A program made the translations under genes and the position numbers. The notes below the pieces were generated by a model, which saw only the letters and a list, made by a program, of their open reading frames with translations, made no database searches and was not told where the DNA came from. Positions 2,147-34,585 of a stretch of DNA of 34,934 nucleotides are shown here, piece after piece; position 1 is the first letter of the stretch; every line of letters begins with the position of its first letter. Source of the DNA: a virus. The stretch is taken from the IMG/VR virus record IMGVR_UViG_3300047317_000797, positions 1 to 34,934 of that record; one strand, 5' to 3'.

Positions 2147-2935
2147 ATGCCGCCCACCAAGCGCATTGCGCGCACCCCCGCGCCCACCAAGCGCGTCTCC
2201 CGCCCCACCACTCCCGCTGCTCAGGCCGAGCCTGACGAAGACGACTTCCCGCAGGCCCCCGACACCGACGACGACGCCCCCCTCGAACAGCCCGCCGCCC
2301 GCAACGGCAACGGCGCCAAGCCCCGCTTGAAGCGAGGCTGGACCGGCGGCCAGCAGGTGATGGAGTCGACGTCGGACTACGCCCAGGCGTTCCGGCCCGA
2401 CGAGACGTCCCAGGTCGTCAAGTTCCTCGAAGACAGCCCCTACGCCAGCTTCCGCCGGCACTGGATCGAGGGCACCAACGACTCCGGCCAGCGCACCGTA
2501 CGGGCCTACACGTGCCCGCTGAGCTTCAACGAGGCCTGTCCGCTGTGCGAGGCCGGTGACCGCCCCCAGGCCGTCTCCTGCTTCAACGTGGCCCTGGTGT
2601 CCGAAGACGGCCAGGTGATCCTCAAGTCCTGGGAGGTCGGAGCTCGGCTCTTCAACGTGTTGAAGGGCTACGCCAACGACCCCAAGATCTCCCCGCTGTC
2701 CCGGCACTTCTTCCTGGTGTCGAAGACCGGCAAGAAGTCCAACACCCAGTACAACGTCAGCCCGGTGCGCAAGACCTCGCTCTCCGAGGACTACGACGTG
2801 ACGCCGCCCGAGGACGACGATCTCGCTCGGCTCACGCTCTACACCGAGGACATCGTCAAGGTCGAGCCGATCCGCCGGCTCCGGGAGTTGGCGCAGGAGC
2901 TCGTCGCGGATGACGGTGGCGGTTACGAGGGCTGA
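2147..2935 (+). CDS. gp32-like single-stranded DNA-binding protein
   Basis: The product has 262 residues. A disordered Lys/Pro then Asp/Glu-rich N-terminus (about 1-55) precedes a core resembling T4 gp32-like proteins found in actinophages. A probable zinc site is formed by Cys123, Cys131, Cys134 (CPLC) and Cys145. The following strands (ILKSWEVGARLFNVLKGY) are typical of the OB fold. The C-terminus is fairly acidic, as in SSBs that recruit partners. It would coat ssDNA during replication and recombination. It lies immediately before the polymerase gene, with a 5-bp gap, which supports this role. Confidence 0.8.
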   Translation: MPPTKRIARTPAPTKRVSRPTTPAAQAEPDEDDFPQAPDTDDDAPLEQPAARNGNGAKPRLKRGWTGGQQVMESTSDYAQAFRPDETSQVVKFLEDSPYASFRRHWIEGTNDSGQRTVRAYTCPLSFNEACPLCEAGDRPQAVSCFNVALVSEDGQVILKSWEVGARLFNVLKGYANDPKISPLSRHFFLVSKTGKKSNTQYNVSPVRKTSLSEDYDVTPPEDDDLARLTLYTEDIVKVEPIRRLRELAQELVADDGGGYEG

Positions 2936-2940
2936 TCGCC

Positions 2941-5016
2941 GTGCGCTTGCCGCACGTCATCACCGACATCGCTGAGGTTCACGACGCCGTCGAGCGCTTG
3001 TCTCGGTCCGATGTCGTGTGCATCGACGTCGAGACGAGGGAGAAGGTCAAGGACAACCCCAACCCTCGTACCAATGAGGTGACCTGGCTCGGTATCGGGG
3101 GCCCGGGCCAGGTCTACCTCATTCCACTCAGTCATCCCAAGGGTGTCACGCTGGTTCGGGAGCACAGGGACAAGACGCCCGCCTGCATGCTCTACGGCGC
3201 CGACGACCCTCGAAGCAAGACCAAGACCGGCAAGATCTCCATGCGTTTGGTCGACCACACCGTGCCGGCCACCTTTGCGACACCGCCGGTTCAACTGAGC
3301 CCCGCCGCCGTGTTCGAGGCCGTCCGCCCCCTGCTGTTCAGCGATCGGGCCAAGTTGGGGCACAACGTCAAGTTCGATCTCCAGACGGTCGCCAAGTACT
3401 ACGACGGTGAGATCCCACCGGGCCCGTACCACGACACGATCCTGATCCGCCACGTCCTGACGGAGAACCTGCCCGACTACACCCTCAAGACGCTGACGAT
3501 GGACTGGCTGGGCATCCCCCTGCACCGGCGCAAGCGCTTCTACCCCAACCTCGGCAAGGCCGGCGTCGACTTCTTCGGCCTCGATGAGGTGGCCCGCTAT
3601 CTGGCCAAGGACATCCGCTACTGCTGGTTGCAGTTCCAGTTCTTCTACCCACGGCTGATCGCTCGCGGGCTGCAACCGATCTACGACTTCGAGATGTCGG
3701 TGTACCCGGTGCTGATGGACATCGAGCAGGCCGGGTTCTGCGTGGACGGATCAAACCTGGGTCAGGTCAAAGCCAACCTGGAGCAGCGCCTCCGTGAGCT
3801 CGAAGAGCAGTGCTGGATCGCCGCCGGCGGCCAGTTCCCGCTGTCCAACACCGACGCCAAGCGCTGGGTCATGTTCGGGCACGGCAAGCCGGCGCCGACC
3901 TGGGACCTGGACAAGGAGCGCAAGATCCCGGGCACCAAGCTGCGCAGCCAGAACTTGCGAGCGCTCAGCCTCACCGAGGAGACGAAGGTCCCCCAGGTCA
4001 CCCAGGCCGTGCTCAAGTACTACGCCGACCGGGGCAACCACATGGCCGAGTGGTTCCTGGAGTGGTCGCTGCTGGAGAAGTTGCGGGGCACGTTCGTGGA
4101 GGGGCTGAGCAAGATGCTGACGCCCCACGAACGCGGCCTACCGACGATCCACACCTCATTCAAGCAACACGGCACCGTGACGGGCCGTCTCTCAAGTGCC
4201 AGCCCTAACCTCCAGCAGCTTCCTCGGGGCTCGCGGATCCGGGACCTGTTCGTGGCCGGGCCCGGCCACGTGCTGATCGTGGCCGACTACGACCAGATCG
4301 AGCTCCGCTGCGTGGCTCACCAGAGCGGCGACCCGGTGATGACCCAGGTCTTCAAACAGGGGTCTGACATCCACGCCCAGGCCACGGCGGCCGCGTTGCG
4401 GATCCCCGTCGGGGACGTGACGCCGGACTTGCGCCAGGTTGGCAAGACGCTCAACTTCGCCACCCTCTACGGCGCCACCAAGGGCAAGATCGCCTCGGTG
4501 GCCGGCGGTTCCGAAGCCCGCGGCCAGCAGTTCCTCGACCGCTACTACGCCCAGTTCGCCGCCCTCAAGCCGTGGAAGGCCCGCATGTTGCGGGAAGCCC
4601 GAGCTCGTGGTGACCGTGCCAACTTCATCTCCCAACCGCCAGCGGTGCTGATCCCCCCGATCGGGCGCCTGCGGAGGCTTCCGGACCTCTACAACCCCGA
4701 GGACTGGAAGCGTTGGCGGGCGGAGCGTCAGGCGATCAACGCCATCATCCAGGGCTTCGCCTCCAACATCACGAAGATGGCCATGTTGGGCCTGCACTCC
4801 AACCTGGCTGAGTTGCCAGCGTGGATGGTGGTCCAGGTGCACGACGAGATCGTTGTCTGTTGCCAGGAGGACTGGGTGGATGAGGTTCTTCCCATCGTCG
4901 TCTCTACGATGGGAGACATCAGAGACAGCGATGGCGGCCCCATCCTGGGGGACGAGATCCCGTTGCTGGCCTCGGCAGGAGTTGGTTACTCGTGGTCGCA
5001 GGCGAAGGGCAAATGA
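2941..5016 (+). CDS. polA: family A DNA polymerase with 3'-5' exonuclease domain
   Basis: The product has 691 residues and starts with GTG. The proofreading domain shows Exo I (Asp29 and Glu31 in CIDVET), Exo II (HNVKFD, Asp146) and Exo III (YLAKD, Asp224). The polymerase domain shows motif A (DYDQIELR, Asp449), motif B with Arg498, Lys502, Phe506 and Tyr510 in the O-helix, and motif C (HDE, residues 634-636). There is no 5' nuclease domain, as usual for phage Pol I types. All catalytic residues are present. Phe506 corresponds to the Phe that favours dNTPs over ddNTPs in E. coli Pol I. It would be the replicative polymerase. Confidence 0.97.
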   Translation: MRLPHVITDIAEVHDAVERLSRSDVVCIDVETREKVKDNPNPRTNEVTWLGIGGPGQVYLIPLSHPKGVTLVREHRDKTPACMLYGADDPRSKTKTGKISMRLVDHTVPATFATPPVQLSPAAVFEAVRPLLFSDRAKLGHNVKFDLQTVAKYYDGEIPPGPYHDTILIRHVLTENLPDYTLKTLTMDWLGIPLHRRKRFYPNLGKAGVDFFGLDEVARYLAKDIRYCWLQFQFFYPRLIARGLQPIYDFEMSVYPVLMDIEQAGFCVDGSNLGQVKANLEQRLRELEEQCWIAAGGQFPLSNTDAKRWVMFGHGKPAPTWDLDKERKIPGTKLRSQNLRALSLTEETKVPQVTQAVLKYYADRGNHMAEWFLEWSLLEKLRGTFVEGLSKMLTPHERGLPTIHTSFKQHGTVTGRLSSASPNLQQLPRGSRIRDLFVAGPGHVLIVADYDQIELRCVAHQSGDPVMTQVFKQGSDIHAQATAAALRIPVGDVTPDLRQVGKTLNFATLYGATKGKIASVAGGSEARGQQFLDRYYAQFAALKPWKARMLREARARGDRANFISQPPAVLIPPIGRLRRLPDLYNPEDWKRWRAERQAINAIIQGFASNITKMAMLGLHSNLAELPAWMVVQVHDEIVVCCQEDWVDEVLPIVVSTMGDIRDSDGGPILGDEIPLLASAGVGYSWSQAKGK

Positions 5017-5270
5017 CGAGCTCGTGTCAGCACGATGGTCAGACCTGCCCGTTCTGCGAGTCCTGTGTTACTTTGATGCTCATGGCCCTCGGTGTCCTGG
5101 ACCGTGCGACCATCGTGGAAGTGACCTCGCTGGCTGACGCTTACGCCGAGGGAGTTGCTAGCTCCCTGGCTGACGTCGAATCGCCCGAGGCGCTCCTCGA
5201 AGGCCTGTCCGGTGCCTTCATCTCGTTTCTCGTTGAAGCGTCGCGGTTGGTCCATACTCTCCAGTCGTGA
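5013..5270 (+). CDS. small Cys-rich protein of unknown function
   Basis: The 85-residue product starts at ATG 5013, overlapping the polymerase stop (ATGA). The N-terminus holds four Cys within 14 residues (C-x6-C-x2-C-x2-C) and a His, which could bind zinc; the rest is a predicted helical segment of alternating Ala, Leu and Glu. Upstream in-frame GTG 4992 lies inside the polymerase gene and was not used. Coupling to the polymerase suggests a replication-associated accessory protein, but no family was recognised. Confidence 0.65.
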   Translation: MTSSCQHDGQTCPFCESCVTLMLMALGVLDRATIVEVTSLADAYAEGVASSLADVESPEALLEGLSGAFISFLVEASRLVHTLQS

Positions 5271-5713
5271 CTGACAACTCAGCGTGGTACCAACGAGCGC
5301 TGGCCCGAGCACGCGGCCAAGAGGCCCCTCGACCGCAACCCCAGCCGGTGCAGCAGTCGTGGAACGGCGTGGTCACGTACCCCACCAGCACGAATGGCAA
5401 CACCTACTACACCTACGCCCCACAAACTCAAACCCCGGTTAGGCAGGAACCGCCACCACCTCCCCCCACCGGGCAGAAGCAGGAGTCGGTGTCGACCACG
5501 CAACTCCTCCAGATGCAGGAGGCCACCGGTCGGGCCACCCCGGGTGAGGGTGCCCGGCTCAACCCGGATCCGTGCCCCAACTGCGGGGCAGCGCTGTTCT
5601 TCGAGGATCTGTCGGGGAAGAAGCGACGGGGCCCGCCACCAGCACCGCACTGCTTCACATGTGGATACAACGGTCTGTTCGAGCAAGGGCAGGCGAGCTC
5701 CTGGGGGGCGTAG
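5267..5713 (+). CDS. Pro/Gln-rich protein with C-terminal zinc ribbon
   Basis: The 148-residue product begins with GTG overlapping the upstream stop (GTGA). Residues 20-75 are a disordered linker rich in Pro, Gln and Thr, including a run of six Pro. The C-terminus has two CxxC pairs (CPNCG and CFTCG) about 26 residues apart, a zinc ribbon. Proteins of this design often dock onto nucleic acids or polymerases through the ribbon. A TACTCT element 6 nt before the GTG could allow separate leaderless expression. Confidence 0.7.
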   Translation: MTDNSAWYQRALARARGQEAPRPQPQPVQQSWNGVVTYPTSTNGNTYYTYAPQTQTPVRQEPPPPPPTGQKQESVSTTQLLQMQEATGRATPGEGARLNPDPCPNCGAALFFEDLSGKKRRGPPPAPHCFTCGYNGLFEQGQASSWGA

Positions 5714-5722: not shown

Positions 5723-6784
5723 GTGCCCGCCCAAGCCGCCCCCGCCCGCCCCGACATCGATGAGATCATCGGCCGGATCAACAAGCGTCTCAAGTCAGAG
5801 ACGCTGCGCTACGCCAACACCGTCCAGACCTTCACCCGCACCTCCACCGGCTCCCTGGCCTTCGACCTGGCCCTGGGCGGCGGTTGGCCCCTCAACGTGT
5901 GGAACGAGATCATCGGCCTGGAGTCCCACGGCAAGACCGTGATGGCCATCAAGACGGTGGCCGCGGCTCAGGTCGAGCCCGACCACCGCACCCTGTGGAT
6001 CGCCAGCGAGGACTTCAACGTCCCGTGGGCCGAGGCCCTGGGCGCCGACACCAGCCGCATCGTCCTGGCCGAGACGAACATCATGGAGGACGCCTACGGG
6101 ATCATGATCGAGGGCCTGGACTCCAAGGCCTTCGACGCCATCGTGCTGGACTCCGACCCGGCGCTGGTGCCCCGGGCCGAGGAGGAGGCCACGATGGACG
6201 ACTGGGTGGTCGGCCTGGGAGCTCGCCTGACCAACAAGCTGATGCGCAAGTCCACCCCCTCGCAGCGGCGCCTGGTGGGCGAGCGCGACTGCCTGTGCCT
6301 GATCATCAACCAGTGGCGGGACTCGATCACGTCGTTCGGGGATCCCCGCACCACGCCGGGCGGCAAGGGCAAGAACTTCTCGTACTTCACCCGCGTCGAG
6401 GTGGCCCGGGACGGCTTCATCGACGGCCCCAACAAGGTCAAGGTGGGCCAGACGATCAAGATGCGCACGATGAAGAACAAGACGGCCCCGCCGCACCGGG
6501 TGGCCGTCACCGACTTCTACTTCGATGACCACTTCCCGTTCGTCGCCGGCCAGTACGACTCGGTGGCCGAGGTCTGGAACATCGCCACCACCTACGGCAT
6601 CATCGAGCGCCGGGGCAGCCGCTACTACTACCAGGACCAGGAGTGGGTGGGGAAGGATCCCGTTCTTGCCAGTTTGCGTGAGGATCTGGGGTTCCAACGG
6701 GAGATCGACGCCCACGTCCGTCACCACGTCCTCGGTACCCCGTTGCCGGCGAAGGCCAAGAAGCGCCTGGTCCGGGTCAAGTGA
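5723..6784 (+). CDS. RecA-like recombinase/ATPase
   Basis: The 353-residue product has the RecA core: Walker A at 65-72 (GLESHGKT), Walker B at 137-143 (FDAIVLD), and the L1/L2-type region INQWR (195-199) followed by a TTPGGKG segment that matches the ETTTGGNAL region of RecA in position. Length matches bacterial RecA. It would form ATP-dependent filaments on ssDNA for strand exchange. The chain is divergent from host RecA and lacks the standard acidic C-terminal tail, as phage UvsX/RecA-like proteins do. It overlaps the next nuclease gene by four bases, forming a recombination cassette. Confidence 0.9.
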   Translation: MPAQAAPARPDIDEIIGRINKRLKSETLRYANTVQTFTRTSTGSLAFDLALGGGWPLNVWNEIIGLESHGKTVMAIKTVAAAQVEPDHRTLWIASEDFNVPWAEALGADTSRIVLAETNIMEDAYGIMIEGLDSKAFDAIVLDSDPALVPRAEEEATMDDWVVGLGARLTNKLMRKSTPSQRRLVGERDCLCLIINQWRDSITSFGDPRTTPGGKGKNFSYFTRVEVARDGFIDGPNKVKVGQTIKMRTMKNKTAPPHRVAVTDFYFDDHFPFVAGQYDSVAEVWNIATTYGIIERRGSRYYYQDQEWVGKDPVLASLREDLGFQREIDAHVRHHVLGTPLPAKAKKRLVRVK

Positions 6785-7080
6785 AGCCGTGGGAGAAGCA
6801 GGAGAAGGATCTCGCCCGGCGACGGGCCGGTGCTCGTACGCGAGGTTCCGGCAGCGGCTGGCGACAGCGCAACGACGTACGCGAGGGGCGCCGGATCCTC
6901 TGGGAGTGCAAGCAGACGGCCGGTATCAGCATCTCCGTGAGCCTGGCGGTGTGGAACTCATTGCGGAAGAACGCCATGATGGAGGGCGCGATGCCGGCCC
7001 TGGCGATCCGGATCGGTGACACCGATCTCGTTGTGATAACACAGGACGACTTCGATGAGATGAGGCCTCCTGATGCGTGA
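6781..7080 (+). CDS. PD-(D/E)xK nuclease, Hjc-like Holliday junction resolvase candidate
   Basis: The 99-residue product starts at GTG 6781, overlapping the recA-like stop. The order of motifs fits small PD-(D/E)xK enzymes: an N-terminal Glu (Glu8), a Gly/Ser-rich loop with basic residues (RGSGSGW), Asp32 in NDV, and E-x-K at Glu42 and Lys44 (WECK). Small phage proteins with this layout are often annotated as Holliday junction resolvases. The position between a RecA-like and a Cas4-like gene supports recombination. The exact substrate is not shown by the sequence. A near-palindrome, TGTGATAACACA, lies inside it at 7032-7043. Confidence 0.75.
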   Translation: MKPWEKQEKDLARRRAGARTRGSGSGWRQRNDVREGRRILWECKQTAGISISVSLAVWNSLRKNAMMEGAMPALAIRIGDTDLVVITQDDFDEMRPPDA

Positions 7081-7321: not shown

Positions 7322-8320
7322 ATGACCAGGCTGATCCGCCCATCAGCCCTCAAGCGCCTCAAAGACACCTATCGCAGCGACGAGGGGGTCCTGCTGCCGC
7401 ACCTGGAGCGCCACGTGATGCGCTCGGGGTTCGAGGCCCGCCCTGACGACCACTCGATGCACCACATGCACCCCTCCGACCTGGCCAAGCACGACTGGTG
7501 CGGTCGGCACGACTACTACCGCATCACCGACGCCCCCGTTGACCGCACGAGCCAGGCCAACCCCAGCTTCCGGATGGCCAACGCCTTCGCTGAGGGCCAC
7601 ACGATCCACGGCAAGTATCAGACGTGGCTGTGGGAGATGGGGGTGTTGTGGGGGGACTGGCAGTGCCTGGAGTGCGGCCACCGGTGGGGCGCTCTCTCGC
7701 CCAAGGTGTGCCAGTTCTGTCTGAGCCCCCGCCTCGTGTACCGAGAACTCCCGATGCGCCACAAGAACTACCTCGTGGAGGGCCACGCTGACGCTGCCGT
7801 CCACCTGGAGGACTGGCGGGGCCTGGTCGAGATCAAGTCGATCGGCATCCAGACCCTGCGGTTCGAGGCCCCCCGCCTCTACCAGCAGTACCAGGATGGT
7901 ACGTCGGCCGAGGAGATCTGGTTCAACATCAAGCGTCCCCTGCCCAGCCACATGCGCCAGGGCCAGTACTACCTCTGGATGTCGTTCCCCCGCTACGAGC
8001 AGATCTGCTTCATCTACGAGTCGAAGTTCACCCAGCAGACCAAGGAGTTCGTGGTCGGCTACAACAAGGACTACATCGCTGCCCGCCTGGACGATGTCCG
8101 CGAGGTGGCGCAGGGAGTCCGCACTGGTATCACACCGGAACGTCCGTCATGGGCCGAGGATGCGCAGGTCAAGATCTGTCGCTCCTGTGAGTACCGCCGA
8201 ACGTGCTGGAACATCGGAGCACCCAATGGAAACGCCGCCCAAGAAGAAGTACATCCGCCAACGGTCGTCGTCCAACGCACCAACGCCGCCAAGCGGAGGA
8301 GGACCCTTCGCCCGTCCTGA
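7322..8320 (+). CDS. Cas4/RecB-like PD-(D/E)xK exonuclease with iron-sulphur cysteines
   Basis: The 332-residue product has a RecB/Cas4-type nuclease core: Asp157 in EGHADA and the E-x-K motif at Glu170 and Lys172 (LVEIKS). One N-terminal Cys (Cys60, DWCGR) and three C-terminal Cys (286, 289 and 295, in CRSCEYRRTC) match the 4Fe-4S layout of Cas4 and AddB. A second zinc ribbon (Cys115, 118, 130 and 133) is inserted between the N-terminal Cys and the nuclease core. It probably processes DNA ends for the RecA-like protein. No CRISPR genes are nearby, so this is the phage-recombination kind of Cas4. GGAG lies close before the ATG. Confidence 0.88.
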   Translation: MTRLIRPSALKRLKDTYRSDEGVLLPHLERHVMRSGFEARPDDHSMHHMHPSDLAKHDWCGRHDYYRITDAPVDRTSQANPSFRMANAFAEGHTIHGKYQTWLWEMGVLWGDWQCLECGHRWGALSPKVCQFCLSPRLVYRELPMRHKNYLVEGHADAAVHLEDWRGLVEIKSIGIQTLRFEAPRLYQQYQDGTSAEEIWFNIKRPLPSHMRQGQYYLWMSFPRYEQICFIYESKFTQQTKEFVVGYNKDYIAARLDDVREVAQGVRTGITPERPSWAEDAQVKICRSCEYRRTCWNIGAPNGNAAQEEVHPPTVVVQRTNAAKRRRTLRPS

Positions 8321-8726
8321 GTTCGAGATCCCCGATCTCCCTCGTGATATCACCATACTGTCGGACGAGCGACTGATGCAGATCTTCACCGAGTACGTGG
8401 CCTGGCAGAACTACGCCGCCACCGAGCTCGCCACCGCTGAGGTGGTGGAGGAACGTGCCGAGGTGCGGCTCAAGTTCCTTGAGGCCGAGGGCCTGGTCAA
8501 GAGTTGGGCTCCGAAGGACACGGTGACCCAGATCAAAGCCCGGTTAGCCGGCGAGCCGGCCATCGACGCTGCGGCGCAAGAGCGCCTCAACGCCTACGCT
8601 GCCCGCAAGATGACCCAGGTGATCCGGGACAACTGTGAGCGCTGTGCGGCGCTGGTGTCGCGGGAGTTGACACGACGGACGGCAAACACCCCTTTGGACC
8701 GTCGCCAGATGCGCTGGGCACCGTGA
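8226..8726 (+). CDS. helical protein of unknown function overlapping the Cas4-like gene
   Basis: The 166-residue product starts at ATG 8226, inside the last 95 bp of the Cas4-like gene in another frame. The first 35 residues are basic and Pro/Ser-rich; the middle is a long helix rich in Ala and Glu, likely a coiled coil (about 60-95); a Cys pair (CERC) lies near the C-terminus. The out-of-frame overlap is unusually long compared with the 4- to 14-bp overlaps elsewhere, so the two C- and N-terminal tails are probably disordered. Role unknown; position suggests recombination or repair. Confidence 0.7.
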   Translation: METPPKKKYIRQRSSSNAPTPPSGGGPFARPEFEIPDLPRDITILSDERLMQIFTEYVAWQNYAATELATAEVVEERAEVRLKFLEAEGLVKSWAPKDTVTQIKARLAGEPAIDAAAQERLNAYAARKMTQVIRDNCERCAALVSRELTRRTANTPLDRRQMRWAP

Positions 8727-8748
8727 GGACGTGAGGAGGTGGGGCGAC

Positions 8749-9336
8749 ATGGGGCAGGAGCAGAACGACGAGCTCGCCCCCAAGGTGCTGGGCATCGACC
8801 CTGGTCAGACCGGCGCGCTGGCCTGGGTGACGCCGACCGGCCGGCTCCACGAGGTGGAGGACATGCCCGTCGTCAACGGCGAGGTCAACGCCCACTTCCT
8901 GGCCCAGTTGATCCTGGCCAGTGGTCGCTTAGAGGCATGCGTGGTGGAGAAGGTCCACTCGATGCCCAAGCAGGGGGTGGCGTCCAGCTTCAAGTTCGGC
9001 ACCTCGTACGGCATCGTCATCGGGGTCGTCGCCGCTCTTGAGATACCACTCTTCTTCGCTCCACCCCAGGAGTGGAAGGGTGTCATGCACCTGATCGGCA
9101 AGGACAAGGAGGCGGCCCGGAAGCTGGCCATCGAGCGCTGGCCCACCCACTCTGACCTGTTCCGGCTCAAGAAACATTCCGACCGGGCCGAGGCCGCGCT
9201 GATCGCGCTGTCCTGGTTGTACACCTCTACCAGGGCCGAACGTCAGATCAAGCTCACCGGACCGAGCTCCCGACCAAACTCCAAGCGCAGACTCATACGC
9301 ATCTATCCGGAGGGGGCGCCGGCTACTGTGTCGTGA
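8749..9336 (+). CDS. RuvC-like Holliday junction resolvase
   Basis: The 195-residue product has an RNase H-fold nuclease signature: Asp17 in GIDPG, Glu67 in VVEKV, and Asp145 in HSDRAEA, in the order and spacing of RuvC. The segment SMPKQGVASSFKFG matches the RuvC helix after the second acidic residue. A strong Shine-Dalgarno site (AGGAGGT at 8733-8739) fixes the start at ATG 8749. A basic C-terminal extension of about 35 residues exceeds the usual RuvC length. It would cut branched recombination intermediates or resolve DNA before packaging. A second, unrelated resolvase candidate lies at 6781. Confidence 0.85.
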   Translation: MGQEQNDELAPKVLGIDPGQTGALAWVTPTGRLHEVEDMPVVNGEVNAHFLAQLILASGRLEACVVEKVHSMPKQGVASSFKFGTSYGIVIGVVAALEIPLFFAPPQEWKGVMHLIGKDKEAARKLAIERWPTHSDLFRLKKHSDRAEAALIALSWLYTSTRAERQIKLTGPSSRPNSKRRLIRIYPEGAPATVS

Positions 9337-9363
9337 ACACCGTGGCACTAAGAGGAGCACCCG

Positions 9364-9648
9364 ATGGTGATGGTCACCGACAATCTGATGAGGGTGTCCG
9401 GCTCCTCACAACCACAAGCTGTTGCCGGCTCGATCCGAGCGTTCATCTTCGAGAGCAACCAGATGCCCGTCATCCGGGCCGTCGGGGCCGGCGCCGTCGC
9501 CCAAGCGTGCAAGGCCATCGCCATCGCCCGGGGCTACGTGGCCACACGGGGCTTCGATCTCGGCGTGGCCATCGGCTTCGAGACGATCCCCGGTGACGAG
9601 GGGCAGGGCGACATCTCCGCCCAGGTCTTCCATCTGTTCATGAGGTAG
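9364..9648 (+). CDS. SpoVS-family protein (Alba-like fold)
   Basis: The 94-residue product aligns by eye along its whole length with stage V sporulation protein S: an opening VSGSSQP segment, then AVAGSIRAF, and the hallmark AVGAGAVAQACKAIAIARGY at about 39-58, ending in a beta-strand. SpoVS belongs to the Alba superfamily of small dimeric nucleic-acid-binding proteins and affects sporulation in Bacillus. GAGGAG 7 nt before ATG 9364 sets the start. It sits at the boundary between recombination and tail genes. Whether it acts on phage DNA, RNA or host development is unknown. Confidence 0.85.
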   Translation: MVMVTDNLMRVSGSSQPQAVAGSIRAFIFESNQMPVIRAVGAGAVAQACKAIAIARGYVATRGFDLGVAIGFETIPGDEGQGDISAQVFHLFMR

Positions 9649-9651
9649 CTC

Positions 9652-10584
9652 GTGGCCCTCTTCCCCGCCGTCTACCGCGGCCAAGCCATCGCCGTCAACG
9701 GGAGCACGATCAAGGCCTACGTGCCCCAGGTGTTCGGTGACACCCCTATCACGGTGCGTGCCTTCCTCGGGGCGATGCCTACGACCCGCACCGACGGCTG
9801 GATCTTCTTCCAGGGTGGCAATCCGAGCTACCCGGTGTGGGCAGGCGGTGACTCCGCGGGCGGGGGCGGTGAGCAAGGTCCGCCCGGTCCGCCTGGTCCG
9901 CCCGGTCCTCCCGGCGCGGCGGTGGCGCAACGCCCCTTCGTCTACGACAACCGCATCACTGCCGTCGACCCTGGCAACGGGAAGCTGCGGACCAACAGCA
10001 ACGACGAGTCCCTGGTCACCCAGATCTACGTCTCGCTGTACGACGCCAACGGTGTCGTGGTACCTGGCGTCGACAACTTGGTGGTGAACGACCAGTTCTA
10101 CCTCTACGAGGCCAACAACTACGGGATGGTATCTCTCTATCTCGTCACCGGCACGCCAGTGGTCACCGCCAACTCATGGGTGACGGTCCCGGTGACGGTC
10201 GATGTCTATGGTGGCTTCTCTCCGAGCAACAACCAGGCCATCGTCGCCTACTACACGGCGCCCAACCAGGGTGGTGGTGGCACGGGCACCGACGAGGTAT
10301 GGATCGGGACGGACGACCCGATCGCTTCCCACCCCACCATCGAGTTGTGGTTCGACACCGACGCCATCCCGGCGACACCAGCCGTGGGCAACGTCGCCTA
10401 CCGCTATGTCCAGGGCAGCCCGTCCGCCACATGGGTGATCGTCCACAACCTCGGGTGGTATCCCAACATCGTCGTTGAGGACAGCGGCGGGTCCACGTGC
10501 GAAGGAGAGACCACCTGGGACAACGCGAACCAAGTCACGTTGACGTTCAGCGCCGCCTTCGCCGGTATCGCCTACCTGTCGTGA
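9652..10584 (+). CDS. tail fibre/tip protein with collagen-like segment
   Basis: The 310-residue product starts at GTG 9652. Residues 1-65 resemble a small beta-barrel attachment domain. A collagen-like run of Gly-Pro-Pro repeats follows at about 75-88, typical of phage fibres that trimerise. Then come a beta-rich domain, the module TDEVWIGTDDPI...IELW (about 213-233) shared with two neighbouring genes, and a C-terminal domain with the WVIVHNLGWYP signature seen in many tail-fibre tips. It is the first of five fibre genes in a row and would be part of the host-recognition apparatus. Confidence 0.8.
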   Translation: MALFPAVYRGQAIAVNGSTIKAYVPQVFGDTPITVRAFLGAMPTTRTDGWIFFQGGNPSYPVWAGGDSAGGGGEQGPPGPPGPPGPPGAAVAQRPFVYDNRITAVDPGNGKLRTNSNDESLVTQIYVSLYDANGVVVPGVDNLVVNDQFYLYEANNYGMVSLYLVTGTPVVTANSWVTVPVTVDVYGGFSPSNNQAIVAYYTAPNQGGGGTGTDEVWIGTDDPIASHPTIELWFDTDAIPATPAVGNVAYRYVQGSPSATWVIVHNLGWYPNIVVEDSGGSTCEGETTWDNANQVTLTFSAAFAGIAYLS

Positions 10585-10593
10585 GGTAACACC

Positions 10594-11727
10594 ATGGCCC
10601 GCAAGTACCTCACCGCTCTCGACCTGACCAAGAACGAGCTACAGAACGCCGCCGTTCAGAGCTTGGCCTCGGCGCCTTCCTCGCCGGTCAAGTTCCAGTT
10701 GTACGGCAACAGTGGTGACAACACCCTCTACTGGTGGAACGGCACGTCATGGGTGTCAGCAGCGGGAGGTGGCACCGGTTTCCCCGGCTACGGCTCGGTG
10801 CCCACCGAGACAGCGTTCGGCCAGGCCAAGAGCGACGGTGCTGCCATCACCGTGGCCCGCAGCGATCACACCCACGGCACGCCGACGCACCTGGCCGCCG
10901 ACCACACCACGATCCCGCTGTCCACGTTCTCGGTGCCCACCACCGACATCAACATGGGCCTGTTCAAGATCACCAACATGGCGATCTGCACGGCCGCCAC
11001 CGACGCCGCCACCAAGCAGTACGTCGACAACATCTCGACGGGGATGTCGTGGAAGAACCCGGCTCGCGTCGGCACCACGGCCAACATCACGCTGTCGGGC
11101 CTCCAGTCGATCGACGGAACCAGCCTCGGGGCGGGGGACCGCTGTCTGGTCAAGAACCAGACCGACGCCACCACCAACGGCATCTACGTCGTCGCCTCCG
11201 GGGCGTGGACCCGGGCCACCGACAACGACTCGGGCACCGAGATGCTGTCGGCGTCGGTGTACATCATGGAGGGCAGCACCCAGGCCGACACCGGGTGGGT
11301 GCAGACCACCAACGCCCCGATCGGGATGGGCACCTCGCCGCTGGTGTGGGTGCAGTTCTCGGGCAGCGGGTCGGTCGGTGCTGGTGCTGGTCTGACGTCG
11401 TCGGGCACCACGCTCAACGTCGTCGCCGGCGACAGCACGCTGACCGTCGCCGCTGACTCGATCGTCGTCAACACCACCACGCTCGACGCCCGCTACGCCG
11501 CCGTCGCCAACGGCATCAAGCGCTTCGCCGCCGCCTGCGCTGCGGCCACCTCGACCGTCGTCAACCACGCCTTCAACACCCGCGACGTGTTGGTCGACGT
11601 GTACCGCACGGTGTCGCCGTGGGACTCGGTGGAGTGTGACGTCGAGCGCACCGACGTCAACAACGTGACCGTCCGCTTCACCACGGCGCCTGCCGCTGGT
11701 GACTACCGGATCGTGGTGCTGGCATGA
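10594..11727 (+). CDS. tail fibre protein
   Basis: The 377-residue product has an N-terminal part of short beta segments (TLYWWNGTSW), a HTHG motif, the fibre repeat-type segment GLFKITNMA followed by ATKQYVDN, and then a domain rich in Gly and Thr (GDRCLVKNQTD, TRATDNDSG) that recurs in actinophage minor tail proteins. GAGGT lies before the ATG. A 24-bp DNA stretch coding for ATKQYVDN is repeated exactly in the next gene. The C-terminal 70 residues look like a beta-sandwich. It is probably a receptor-binding or fibre-shaft subunit. Confidence 0.8.
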   Translation: MARKYLTALDLTKNELQNAAVQSLASAPSSPVKFQLYGNSGDNTLYWWNGTSWVSAAGGGTGFPGYGSVPTETAFGQAKSDGAAITVARSDHTHGTPTHLAADHTTIPLSTFSVPTTDINMGLFKITNMAICTAATDAATKQYVDNISTGMSWKNPARVGTTANITLSGLQSIDGTSLGAGDRCLVKNQTDATTNGIYVVASGAWTRATDNDSGTEMLSASVYIMEGSTQADTGWVQTTNAPIGMGTSPLVWVQFSGSGSVGAGAGLTSSGTTLNVVAGDSTLTVAADSIVVNTTTLDARYAAVANGIKRFAAACAAATSTVVNHAFNTRDVLVDVYRTVSPWDSVECDVERTDVNNVTVRFTTAPAAGDYRIVVLA

Positions 11728-14960: not shown

Positions 14961-15515
14961 GTGGCGTCGTTCAACAACTGGTACTCGAACAACGCATACC
15001 CAGGTTCCACCGCGCCCTTCCGCGTGGCGGAGACGTTCGGGCCAGCCCCCCGTGGCCACGACTACCTCGACAACCTGCGGATGTACTGGCGGCGGACGCC
15101 CGAGGCGCAGTACCCCGACGGCTACCTGGGCACGATCCCCTCCCGTCGTGGTGACCGGCTCATGGACGGGCTCAAGGCCCGCACCACGAACAAGCCCTAC
15201 ACCAGGGGTGTCCACAAGGGCGAGCGCATCGACCAGGACGACTATTTCTGGCCCGAGGAGTTCAACCTGTGGACCGGCCTGGAGTACGAGGCCGAGGGGA
15301 TCCGCTTCTTCCCGCCCGGGATCCTCAACGAGTTGGAGGACGAGCGCTACCCCACCGACCGCCGGGTCGGACCCCGCGGTGTGCCCATCGGTCAGCGCTA
15401 CGTCAACAACATCCCCAGGACGCCGCCGAGCCGGGCCAAGGTGTTGGCCTCGCAGGCCCCACCGTGGGAGGTGCGGGGTAACCCAGGTATGAGCATCGGC
15501 TACCCAGGGAGGTAA
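14961..15515 (+). CDS. probable virion-associated protein of unknown function
   Basis: The 184-residue product starts at GTG 14961. It is rich in Arg, Tyr, Pro and Trp and has few hydrophobic helices, with segments such as FNNWYSNNAYPG, LRMYWRRTPEAQYP and FWPEEFNLW. Such aromatic, extended proteins are common among minor structural proteins, but no family was recognised. It starts a run of seven small genes between the fibres and the endolysin. Its stop overlaps the Shine-Dalgarno site of the next gene. Confidence 0.65.
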   Translation: MASFNNWYSNNAYPGSTAPFRVAETFGPAPRGHDYLDNLRMYWRRTPEAQYPDGYLGTIPSRRGDRLMDGLKARTTNKPYTRGVHKGERIDQDDYFWPEEFNLWTGLEYEAEGIRFFPPGILNELEDERYPTDRRVGPRGVPIGQRYVNNIPRTPPSRAKVLASQAPPWEVRGNPGMSIGYPGR

Positions 15516-19742: not shown

Positions 19743-20210
19743 ATGAGTTCGACCCGTGACCCCGAGCTAGAGATGGCCTGTGCCCTCATGGCCGAACGCC
19801 GAGGGCAGATGCGCGTCCACAAGACCAGTTCCTGCCACCTCTGGTTGGGCAGCACGGGTGGCACCGGCTACGGCAAGTTGATGGTGTGCAAGATGTGGTG
19901 GCAACCCCACCGCTTCGCCTGGATCCTCGCCAACGGTGAACCCATCCCTGTTGGGATGGATGTGATGCACAGTTGTGATACTCCGGCGTGCTGTAACCCT
20001 GCGCACCTTTCCGTCGGAACGAGGAGTCAGAACATGAAGGACGCTGTCGCCAAAGGTCGATGGCACAGCTACGGGGCTGGCCTCAACCGCACGCACTGTC
20101 GCAACGGCCACGCCTACGACGAGGAGAACACCAGGGTCACGGCGAAGGGCGTGCGGATCTGCCGTGTCTGCGCTGCTGAGTCCTCTCGGCGCTACCGAGA
20201 GAAGGTCTGA
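19743..20210 (+). CDS. HNH endonuclease with two zinc sites
   Basis: The 155-residue product carries an HNH_3-type motif: HRFAW, then VMHSCDTPACCNPAHLSVGT with His76, Cys78, Asp79, Asn85 and His88. A second zinc site is likely from Cys119, His123, Cys140 and Cys143 (CRNGH, CRVC), resembling DNA-binding zinc motifs attached to phage HNH enzymes. Such freestanding HNH genes often behave as homing endonucleases. It starts 3 nt after the preceding gene, behind a T-rich stretch unusual for the region, a hint of insertion. It is linked by TGATG overlap to the next gene. Confidence 0.87.
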   Translation: MSSTRDPELEMACALMAERRGQMRVHKTSSCHLWLGSTGGTGYGKLMVCKMWWQPHRFAWILANGEPIPVGMDVMHSCDTPACCNPAHLSVGTRSQNMKDAVAKGRWHSYGAGLNRTHCRNGHAYDEENTRVTAKGVRICRVCAAESSRRYREKV

Positions 20211-32064: not shown

Positions 32065-32066
32065 GT

Positions 32067-32137
32067 AGGGCCGGGGGGACTCGAACCCCCGCTCCCCGGG
32101 GTGTGATCCCGGTGCTCTGCCGCTGAGCTACGGCCCT
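32067..32137 (-). tRNA. tRNA-Val (anticodon CAC)
   Basis: The minus-strand sequence folds as a 71-nt tRNA: 7-bp acceptor (AGGGCCG with CGGCCCT), D-arm GCTC/GAGC, anticodon stem CCGGG/CCCGG with loop ATCACAC, and T-arm GGGGG/CCCCC with loop TTCGAGT. U33 is present and the anticodon CAC reads the Val codon GTG. No encoded CCA. Confidence 0.93.
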
Positions 32138-32142
32138 GTGGA

Positions 32143-32212
32143 GCGGACGGCGGGACTCGAACCCGCGTTGCCACCTCGGCAAGGTGGAGCTCTACCACTG
32201 AGCTACGTCCGC
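32143..32212 (-). tRNA. tRNA-Gly (anticodon GCC)
   Basis: A 70-nt minus-strand tRNA: acceptor GCGGACG/CGTCCGC, D-arm GCTC/GAGC, anticodon stem CCACC/GGTGG with loop TTGCCGA, T-arm GCGGG/CCCGC with loop TTCGAGT. All stems pair fully. It reads GGC, a frequent codon here. Confidence 0.95.
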
Positions 32213-32217
32213 GTGGT

Positions 32218-32288
32218 GACCCGAGGGGGACTCGAACCCCCGTCTCCGGCTTGAGGGGCCGGGATCTTTGCCGCTGGACGATCGGGCC
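32218..32288 (-). tRNA. tRNA-Glu (anticodon CTC), unusual C33
   Basis: A 71-nt minus-strand tRNA: acceptor GGCCCGA/TCGGGTC with one G-U pair, a weak D-stem (GTC/GAT), anticodon stem CCGGC/GCCGG with loop CCCTCAA, T-arm GGGGG/CCCCC with TTCGAGT. Overall form matches bacterial tRNA-Glu. Position 33 is C where U is near-universal, so its function may be reduced or changed. Confidence 0.82.
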
Positions 32289-32292
32289 GTGT

Positions 32293-32352
32293 GGAGGAAG
32301 GGCACACCACAGTGTCGTTTGAGCCGCGGTATCCCCGACGGCCCCTTCCTCC
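32293..32352. repeat. 10-bp inverted repeat between tRNA genes
   Basis: GGAGGAAGGG at 32293-32302 pairs fully with CCCTTCCTCC at 32343-32352, enclosing 40 nt that includes a small ACAC/GTGT hairpin. It occupies the 66-bp gap between the Glu and Val-GAC tRNA genes. It lacks a T-arm, so it is not a normal tRNA; it may be a processing signal, a terminator or a decayed tRNA. Confidence 0.55.
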
Positions 32353-32354
32353 GT

Positions 32355-32426
32355 GGACACGGAGGGTGTCGAACCCCCGACCTCCTGCGTGTCATGCAGA
32401 CGCTCTTCCGGCTGAGCTACGTGTCC
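32355..32426 (-). tRNA. tRNA-Val (anticodon GAC)
   Basis: A 72-nt minus-strand tRNA: acceptor GGACACG/CGTGTCC, D-arm GCTC/GAGC, anticodon stem TCTGC/GCAGG (one G-U) with loop ATGACAC, and T-arm GGGGG/CCCTC with one G-U and loop TTCGACA. U33 and anticodon GAC give Val (GTC). A CAT anticodon reading was rejected because it breaks U33. Confidence 0.88.
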
Positions 32427-32549: not shown

Positions 32550-33263
32550 ATGAGAGCCCCAATCAGACAGATTGTGGGGGGAGTTGCTGTCGTTGCAGCG
32601 TTTGCGCTGCCGATGACGGCGCACGCCGGTGGAGGTGGTGGAGGTGGGTATCCCCCAGGAACCACCACCACGACCGTCTACGAGCACCATCCGACGACGA
32701 CGGAGAAGCCGCCTCACGAGACGACCACCACGTACGTGCACTCCACGACGACGATGAAGCCGCCTCATGAGACGACCACGACGATGAAGCCGCCGCACGA
32801 GACGATGAAGCCGCCGCACGAGACGACGACCACGGTCAAGGAGCATCCGACGACCACGACGGTCAAGGAACACCCGACGACGACCACCGTCAAGGCCACG
32901 ACCACCACGGTCAAGGCCACGACGACCACCACGGTGCCCCACGTGACCACGACGACGGTGAAGGCCACGACAACCACCGCCAAGGCCACCACGACGACCG
33001 TTAAGGCCATCACGACCACGGTGAAGGCGACCACCACGACGACACCGGTCGTTACGGCTGCGCCAACCACCGCTCATGTGACAACAGTGGCTCCCGTACC
33101 TGGTCAGGCGGCACCTCCGCCACCACCAGCAGGGCAGCAGTCGGCCAGCGCGCCGCTGCCCAAGACGGGTGCAGTGACCGAGCCGATCGTTTGGATCGCG
33201 GCGATCGTGCTTGGAACCGGTGGGTTCTTCCTGCTGGTTTCCCGCAAGCCACGCCGGGGTTAA
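32550..33263 (+). CDS. Thr-rich cell-wall-anchored protein with LPXTG sorting signal
   Basis: The 237-residue product starts at ATG 32550 with GGGAGGAG upstream. A signal peptide (basic MRAPIRQ, hydrophobic core, AHA cleavage near residue 26) is followed by a Gly run and a long Thr-rich repeat region (about 37-175) made of TTTTVK, KPPHETTTT and EHPTTTT units. The C-terminus is a sortase signal: LPKTG at 203-207, a hydrophobic helix, and a basic tail (RKPRRG). It would be exported and linked to the host wall by host sortase; none is encoded here. A strong terminator follows. It could alter host surface properties or receptor access. Confidence 0.88.
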   Translation: MRAPIRQIVGGVAVVAAFALPMTAHAGGGGGGGYPPGTTTTTVYEHHPTTTEKPPHETTTTYVHSTTTMKPPHETTTTMKPPHETMKPPHETTTTVKEHPTTTTVKEHPTTTTVKATTTTVKATTTTTVPHVTTTTVKATTTTAKATTTTVKAITTTVKATTTTTPVVTAAPTTAHVTTVAPVPGQAAPPPPPAGQQSASAPLPKTGAVTEPIVWIAAIVLGTGGFFLLVSRKPRRG

Positions 33264-34033: not shown

Positions 34034-34585
34034 ATGCGGGCACAGCGGGCACTTCCAGCGGTAGCTGTTGTCACAACACTGCTTGCTGCATGTAGCAGCC
34101 AGGGTGGCCACGAGCTCTTGCCGTTGCGACCCACGAGCACCACCGTCGACACCAGCCAGATCGTGTCGCCGTCGTTCACCACGACGAGCTCGACGGGGCC
34201 GACCACCACCGAGGTGAAGGTGCCGACTACCCCCGACTGGCGGGTCAGTCCCCCGACGGTGGTCGTCTACGTCGCTCCGCCCGCACCAACCTCCACCGCA
34301 TCACCACCGCGACGGCGACCGAGATCAACAGTGCCACCCAAGCGATCCAGTCCCCCGCCGACCCAGCCTCCTGCACCACCACCGGAGACTACAGCCGCAC
34401 CCCCTCCTCCCCCCACGGAGCCACCGGCTCCACCATCAACGACCACTCCTCCCCAGGAAGAAGCTCAAACCACGGTCACCGCAGACGGGCTAACAGTGGT
34501 ATCGCCCATCGCCACTGACCTGGGCACCTTCGGCAACGGTCCAGGGCCTGGACGAGGCCGTGGTCACCGTCCTGGGCGCCCCTGA
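34034..34585 (+). CDS. Pro/Thr-rich lipoprotein
   Basis: The 183-residue product from ATG 34034 has a lipoprotein signal: short basic N-terminus, hydrophobic core and the lipobox LAAC with Cys20. After the Cys, the chain is Ser/Thr/Pro-rich and disordered, with repeated TTTxPP and PPAPPP patterns. No folded domain is visible. It would be lipid-anchored on the outer face of the host membrane. Small phage lipoproteins often block superinfection, a role compatible with this one but not shown. A TAGGCT element 9 nt before the ATG hints at a leaderless start; there is no Shine-Dalgarno site. Confidence 0.75.
   Translation: MRAQRALPAVAVVTTLLAACSSQGGHELLPLRPTSTTVDTSQIVSPSFTTTSSTGPTTTEVKVPTTPDWRVSPPTVVVYVAPPAPTSTASPPRRRPRSTVPPKRSSPPPTQPPAPPPETTAAPPPPPTEPPAPPSTTTPPQEEAQTTVTADGLTVVSPIATDLGTFGNGPGPGRGRGHRPGRP

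Follow-up and report, generated by a model that had tools for sequence, protein, structure and literature searches.

SpoVS is, to our knowledge, a widespread protein family whose molecular activity is poorly known. Phage copies of spoVS are already on record: they appear in PHROG 35646 and in BFVD (A0A6J5QJM8, 49% identical to the protein described below), in both cases without a functional claim, in the annotation of the Streptomyces phage BRock, and among the "sporulation" AMGs of soil and marine viromes. A soil and a marine virome study both read such genes as sporulation genes (PMC6172770, PMC8940887), and Trubl et al. reported spoVS together with whiB as sporulation genes of soil viruses (PMC6172770). 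Virome studies have built ecology on the gene, for example the idea that viruses control the dormancy of their hosts where water is low in oxygen. The accessible text of these two papers makes no mention of resolvase linkage or of a core status of spoVS (PMC6172770, PMC8940887). In archaea, Alba (Sso10b) has the fold and the likely dimerization surface in common with SpoVS, and its key DNA-contact residues are Lys16, Arg44, and Arg83 (PMC3325275). In this study, we describe a phage-type SpoVS that is a core gene of its phage lineage and is linked to a Holliday-junction resolvase; both properties appear to be new, as neither was found in the open-access literature.

The window, that is, the whole stretch of DNA analyzed here, is an entire linear virus record of IMG/VR (34,934 bases) and may be an incomplete genome. 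Its spoVS open reading frame is a genuine full-length SpoVS with the SpoVS fold, as the initial annotation had proposed. The Pfam profile PF04232 matched it at 66.5 bits (cut-off 24, E = 1.8e-18, profile positions 2–72 of 83), PHROG 35646 ("sporulation protein") at E = 2.6e-17, and the Thermus SpoVS structures 2eh1 and 2ek0 at E = 7e-11; the NCBIfam search gave no SpoVS match. An AlphaFold2 model, computed from 50 natural relatives, has a mean pLDDT of 91 and a beta-alpha-beta-alpha-beta-beta order. With this model as the Foldseek query, the best matches were all SpoVS (TM 0.83–0.92), followed by archaeal Alba, which bears out the Alba fold suggested at the outset; 2eh1 and 2ek0 aligned with TM values of 0.83–0.88 and a Z of 15. 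Bacterial SpoVS, including that of Bacillus subtilis and Thermus, is 38–40% identical to the window protein and resembles it in the full-length match, the fold, and the core GAGAVxQAxKAIAIARGY. The start codon is ATG, with AGAGGAG six bases ahead; no promoter-like sites were found near spoVS in the window. The dN/dS across relatives is 0.24–0.41 (a simple Nei-Gojobori estimate, with synonymous sites far diverged in distant pairs), and the near-identical contig L002 encodes a SpoVS without any amino-acid change. Therefore, the reading frame is not a chance one.

The fold raises the possibility of a role like that of archaeal Alba, in which SpoVS would coat or condense the DNA of the phage or of its host for packaging or protection, and the archaeal Alba matches reach a Z of 10–12 by Foldseek and VIA-align. 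However, the net charge of the window protein is 0, and its loops 12–16, 40–43, and 77–82, whose equivalence to the Alba loops is approximate and based on secondary structure, contain no Lys or Arg to match Lys16, Arg44, and Arg83 of Alba (PMC3325275). The basic residues at these positions and the basic surface of an Alba-type DNA-coating protein are thus both absent. Although the folds match, the profile gave no significant hit when compared directly with a single Sulfolobus Alba sequence. The zero charge and the loops free of basic residues weaken the earlier suggestion that the protein coats nucleic acid, and we regard such a role as improbable.

To place the protein within its family, we built a maximum-likelihood tree from 93 phage and bacterial sequences. 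A branch with a support of 100/100 separates the 33 phage-type SpoVS from all 60 bacterial and host-like phage sequences; the alignment has only 87 columns, the bootstrap is not fully settled, and BRock sits on a long branch. The window protein falls outside the bacterial (host-type) subfamily and within the phage-type clade, which forms a distinct SpoVS subfamily. Arg38, Arg62, Ile/Val84, and Ser85 are present in 33 of 33 phage-type sequences (R38, R62, I84, and S85 in the window), whereas the other 60 mostly carry Gln, Asn/Ser, and Arg-Thr at sites 38, 62, and 84–85. Similarly, position 29 is Tyr/Phe in the phage clade and mostly Arg/Lys in bacterial SpoVS, and the basic residues of the bacterial protein at 29, 84, and 88 are all lost. 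Judged from the alignment, this pattern suggests that the surface of the phage-clade protein has been rewired, and the clade-specific Arg38, Arg62, and Ser85 mark it as apparently specialized.

The coordinates of spoVS and its neighbors are collected in Table 1. The gene order PolA, C10, RecA, Hjc-like, Cas4-like, C9, resolvase, SpoVS, C6, and C8 is common to the window and to freshwater phages, and BRock has the same order with insertions. The tail-fiber genes look like a lineage-specific insertion that separates SpoVS from the conserved C6 and C8 genes. The RuvC profile matches solved RuvC/MOC1, and the first catalytic-type Asp is invariant. The C9 homolog in the phage Alone3 carries an SSB annotation. 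Besides the RuvC-like gene, the window module holds a second putative Holliday-junction resolvase, the Hjc-like one. Between the window and the freshwater phages, SpoVS is 54% identical, RecA 45%, C6 40%, and the rest about 30% (Cas4 and Hjc about 32%, PolA 28%); SpoVS is therefore the best kept of all the module proteins that we compared.

Table 1. Location of spoVS and neighboring features in the window
Feature	Position	Strand	Basis
Single-strand DNA-binding protein-like	2147–2935	+	PHROG 14578, E = 2.6e-6
DNA polymerase I family with 3'-5' exonuclease domain	2941–5016	+	Pfam E = 1.2e-77; best phage matches in BRock group
C10-family zinc-ribbon-like module protein	5267–5713	+	Match to the C10 profile (window E = 7e-6; stronger for the relatives)
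RecA-like recombinase	5723–6784	+	Pfam E = 4.7e-40; best phage matches in BRock group
Hjc-like Holliday-junction resolvase, PHROG 2002	6781–7080	+	PHROG E = 9.6e-23; Pfam Hjc under cut-off
Cas4/PD-(D/E)XK-like exonuclease	7322–8320	+	Weak Pfam/NCBIfam matches; INPHARED matches only in BRock-group Streptomyces phages
C9-family protein, between Cas4-like gene and resolvase	8226–8726	+	C9 profile E = 8e-37
RuvC-like Holliday-junction resolvase, PHROG 1770	8731–9336	+	PHROG E = 1.1e-27; stop 27 nt ahead of spoVS
Shine-Dalgarno-like AGAGGAG 5' of spoVS	9351–9357	+	Direct reading
Phage-type SpoVS, 94 aa, Alba fold	9364–9648	+	Pfam PF04232, PHROG 35646, predicted model and fold search, clade with resolvase-linked phage SpoVS
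Tail-fiber-like protein with collagen-like Gly-Pro-Pro repeat, directly 3' of spoVS	9652–10584	+	Direct reading; C-terminal PHROG matches of unknown function; homologs in relatives
Head-decoration/tail-fiber-like protein	10594–11727	+	PHROG 2647, E = 1.8e-60
C6-family protein, kept 3' of spoVS in freshwater phages and BRock	14961–15515	+	Same cluster as BRock gp48; 39–40% identity to freshwater homologs

With the RecA-like protein of the window as the query, ten IMG/VR loci were retrieved. Eight of these window-lineage loci have DNA that extends to the site, and in every one SpoVS is flanked by the RuvC-like gene and the tail-fiber-like gene; identical copies aside, the SpoVS identities are about 60–77%. 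It is a core gene of the window lineage, found at the same site in every relative with DNA covering it; the sporadic occurrence at variable sites that characterizes an auxiliary or moron gene was not observed. The position between resolvase and tail-fiber genes, which the initial annotation had reported and called odd, is real, but it is the standard arrangement in this phage group.

Among cultured phages, tblastn with the window SpoVS found no matches in INPHARED and PLSDB. With the B. subtilis protein as the query, 12 INPHARED records were found, six of which are Streptomyces phage records; host-like SpoVS occurs in Bacillota phages. In BRock, gp52 is the RuvC-like resolvase and gp51 is SpoVS, annotated as a sporulation protein; gp175 and gp176 are their counterparts in Alone3. 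Both SpoVS proteins belong to the same clade as that of the window and are encoded directly 3' of the RuvC-like gene in a PolA-RecA-Hjc-WhiB-Cas4 module. They differ from the window in that SpoVS is 42% identical, the resolvase belongs to PHROG 159 rather than 1770, the module is spread over more genes, and no tail-fiber gene directly follows SpoVS. BRock-group Streptomyces phages are the best matches of RecA and PolA of the window and the sole INPHARED matches of its Cas4-like nuclease. From these relatives, together with the WhiB of the freshwater ones (Pfam E = 2.4e-16), we infer that the host is an actinobacterium.

This setting bears on the view that spoVS is an auxiliary gene altering host sporulation or dormancy. 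The family name agrees with it, viral spoVS was interpreted in this way by Trubl et al. (2018) and in the OMZ study (PMC6172770, PMC8940887), some hosts (Streptomyces) sporulate, and the host-like SpoVS of Bacillota phages may act so. However, the phage clade stands apart from bacterial SpoVS, appears rewired, and sits in a recombination module; BRock is described as virulent, and no lysogeny genes were predicted in it (PMC7453282). Moreover, Corynebacterium glutamicum, the one actinobacterial control genome, gave a WhiB match and no SpoVS match; one Collinsella plasmid record does carry a SpoVS. A sporulation role is therefore disfavored and seems very improbable for the phage clade, though not for the host-like SpoVS of Bacillota phages, and the earlier proposal that the protein steers host development loses most of its force. 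The soil-virus cases of Trubl et al. may belong to the same phage group because spoVS and whiB are both members of the module. The "sporulation" label is probably wrong for a large actinophage-type group, in which spoVS is a core part of the recombination module.

To assess the resolvase linkage more broadly, we took two IMG/VR samples of SpoVS loci, each the best 80 of more than 500, the second led by the B. subtilis query; the first was enlarged with additional SpoVS loci to 93. A RuvC-like ORF lies upstream on the same strand in 92 of the 93 loci of the first sample, within 150 bp in 86. In the second, RuvC occurs within 2 kb upstream in all 59 phage-type loci, and the other 19 are host-like SpoVS. 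Several loci share contigs, so the counts are not independent; collapsing at 90% identity left 33 phage-type sequences, 32 of which have RuvC. The remaining one, from the freshwater-type phage contig L075, has a RusA-like resolvase (PHROG 244, L075:5008–5355) in the RuvC slot after the C9 gene, so that the third resolvase family is based on a single contig. A Holliday-junction resolvase within 2 kb upstream on the same strand, which we propose as a criterion for the clade, is present in the window at 27 nt, and some freshwater phages have other genes between resolvase and SpoVS. With the phage profile and Escherichia coli RuvC as probes, RuvC was found within about 6 kb in none of 80 bacterial spoVS loci, and Firmicutes-type phages with host-like SpoVS showed no RuvC linkage. 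In the reciprocal scan, SpoVS was located within 2 kb downstream in 75 of 75 BRock-type RuvC loci with enough DNA. For PHROG 1770-type RuvC, it was nearby in 7 of 80 loci, all from the window lineage; an obligate need of this enzyme for SpoVS is rejected by the other 73, 3 of which are too short to judge.

The resolvases themselves differ. The window lineage has PHROG 1770 and the freshwater and BRock lineages have PHROG 159, with a mutual identity of 14–20%, yet C9 upstream and SpoVS downstream are kept on either side of both types. The resolvase has been exchanged for other families (PHROG 159, 1770, and 244) while SpoVS was retained. Since the RuvC type varies while C9 and SpoVS stay constant, SpoVS is a part of the module, in which the resolvase can be replaced. 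A single module family supplies all of the linkage evidence, and the neighborhood could be inherited ancestral gene order only, with SpoVS performing an unrelated core task. The PolA-to-SpoVS module is syntenic in all lineages, and in distance matrices of 16 phages SpoVS and RuvC co-vary no more specially than other pairs from the module do (partial r 0.23), as this explanation would have it. In contrast, several kb of other genes separate C9 from RuvC in BRock and Alone3 but none separate RuvC from SpoVS, and on at least two occasions one resolvase type gave way to another, with SpoVS still following the new enzyme. We consider descent alone unlikely.

Bacterial spoVS has different neighbors from the resolvase and RecA genes of the phage clade: in 31 of 80 loci, it adjoins rny-ymdB-like genes (RNase Y and phosphoesterase, assigned from their sequences by eye). 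RNA binding is frequent among Alba-fold proteins, a model of B. subtilis YunD-SpoVS exists (entry 9a7h), and a C15 metallophosphoesterase lies 3' of SpoVS in nine freshwater-type representatives (e.g., L232:7004–8026). SpoVS could thus be a phage regulator or an RNA-level factor whose gene stands where replication genes give way to structural ones; it might have a phosphoesterase partner, as may bacterial SpoVS, and its link to the resolvase would be positional only. However, the C15 profile had no match in the window or BRock, we saw no RNase gene among the module genes, and SpoVS is linked to the resolvase more consistently than to any phosphoesterase; as C15 is present in only part of the phages, it was rejected as the SpoVS partner. 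We judge a role at the RNA level to be fairly unlikely.

Our preferred reading, to which we give a little less than an even chance, is that the window SpoVS is a core member of the replication/recombination module and, with its Alba fold, assists the phage in recombination and in resolving DNA branches. In its favor are the near-constant linkage seen in both directions, the retention of SpoVS when the resolvase changed, the lack of RuvC at bacterial loci, the separate clade with its diagnostic residues, the high conservation of SpoVS, and the gene pair in BRock and Alone3. Phage SpoVS probably helps to process phage DNA rather than to control host sporulation. In such a scheme, spoVS would be translated together with the resolvase; the protein, probably dimeric, would bind branched or otherwise structured nucleic acid or bridge RecA, the Hjc-like nuclease, the Cas4-like exonuclease, and C9; and its action would allow recombination branches to be resolved ahead of packaging. 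Because the resolvase is interchangeable, SpoVS more likely recognizes the DNA substrate or common machinery than one particular resolvase. The resolvase of the archaeal virus SIRV2 pulled down Alba proteins, a weak precedent (PMC3157427). Several points speak against a recombination role: the lineages share one ancestral module, so common descent, and no direct tie in function, may account for the linkage; PHROG 1770-type RuvC does not need SpoVS, because most phages with that type lack a nearby copy; and the same holds for the genes between resolvase and SpoVS in some freshwater phages, the single contig behind the third resolvase type, the zero net charge, the Alba contact sites devoid of basic residues, and the lack of excess co-variation with RuvC. 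A broader version, in which phage-type SpoVS serves Holliday-junction resolution as a general cofactor, preparing or holding branched phage DNA for any of several unrelated resolvases, as a counterpart in role of RuvA/RuvB, is possible but rather doubtful. The phage module gives a testable context for SpoVS biochemistry, in cultured phages that grow on laboratory Streptomyces.

Elsewhere in the window, four tightly packed tRNA genes (Val-CAC, Gly-GCC, Glu-CTC, and Val-GAC) lie on the minus strand at 32065–32426; they may be cargo of the phage or mark where a host chromosome begins. The ORF at 32550–33263 encodes a secreted Thr-rich repeat protein with an LPKTG end and a membrane anchor, without a match among nine relatives; it looks like a host cell-surface gene, perhaps from a chromosomal flank or carried as cargo. 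A lipoprotein-like ORF is located at 34034–34585. The C-terminal part of the product of 26233–27618 matches PHROG 887, labeled queuine tRNA-ribosyltransferase (E = 3e-23), and 19743–20210 is an HNH endonuclease gene (PHROG 826, Pfam HNH_3).
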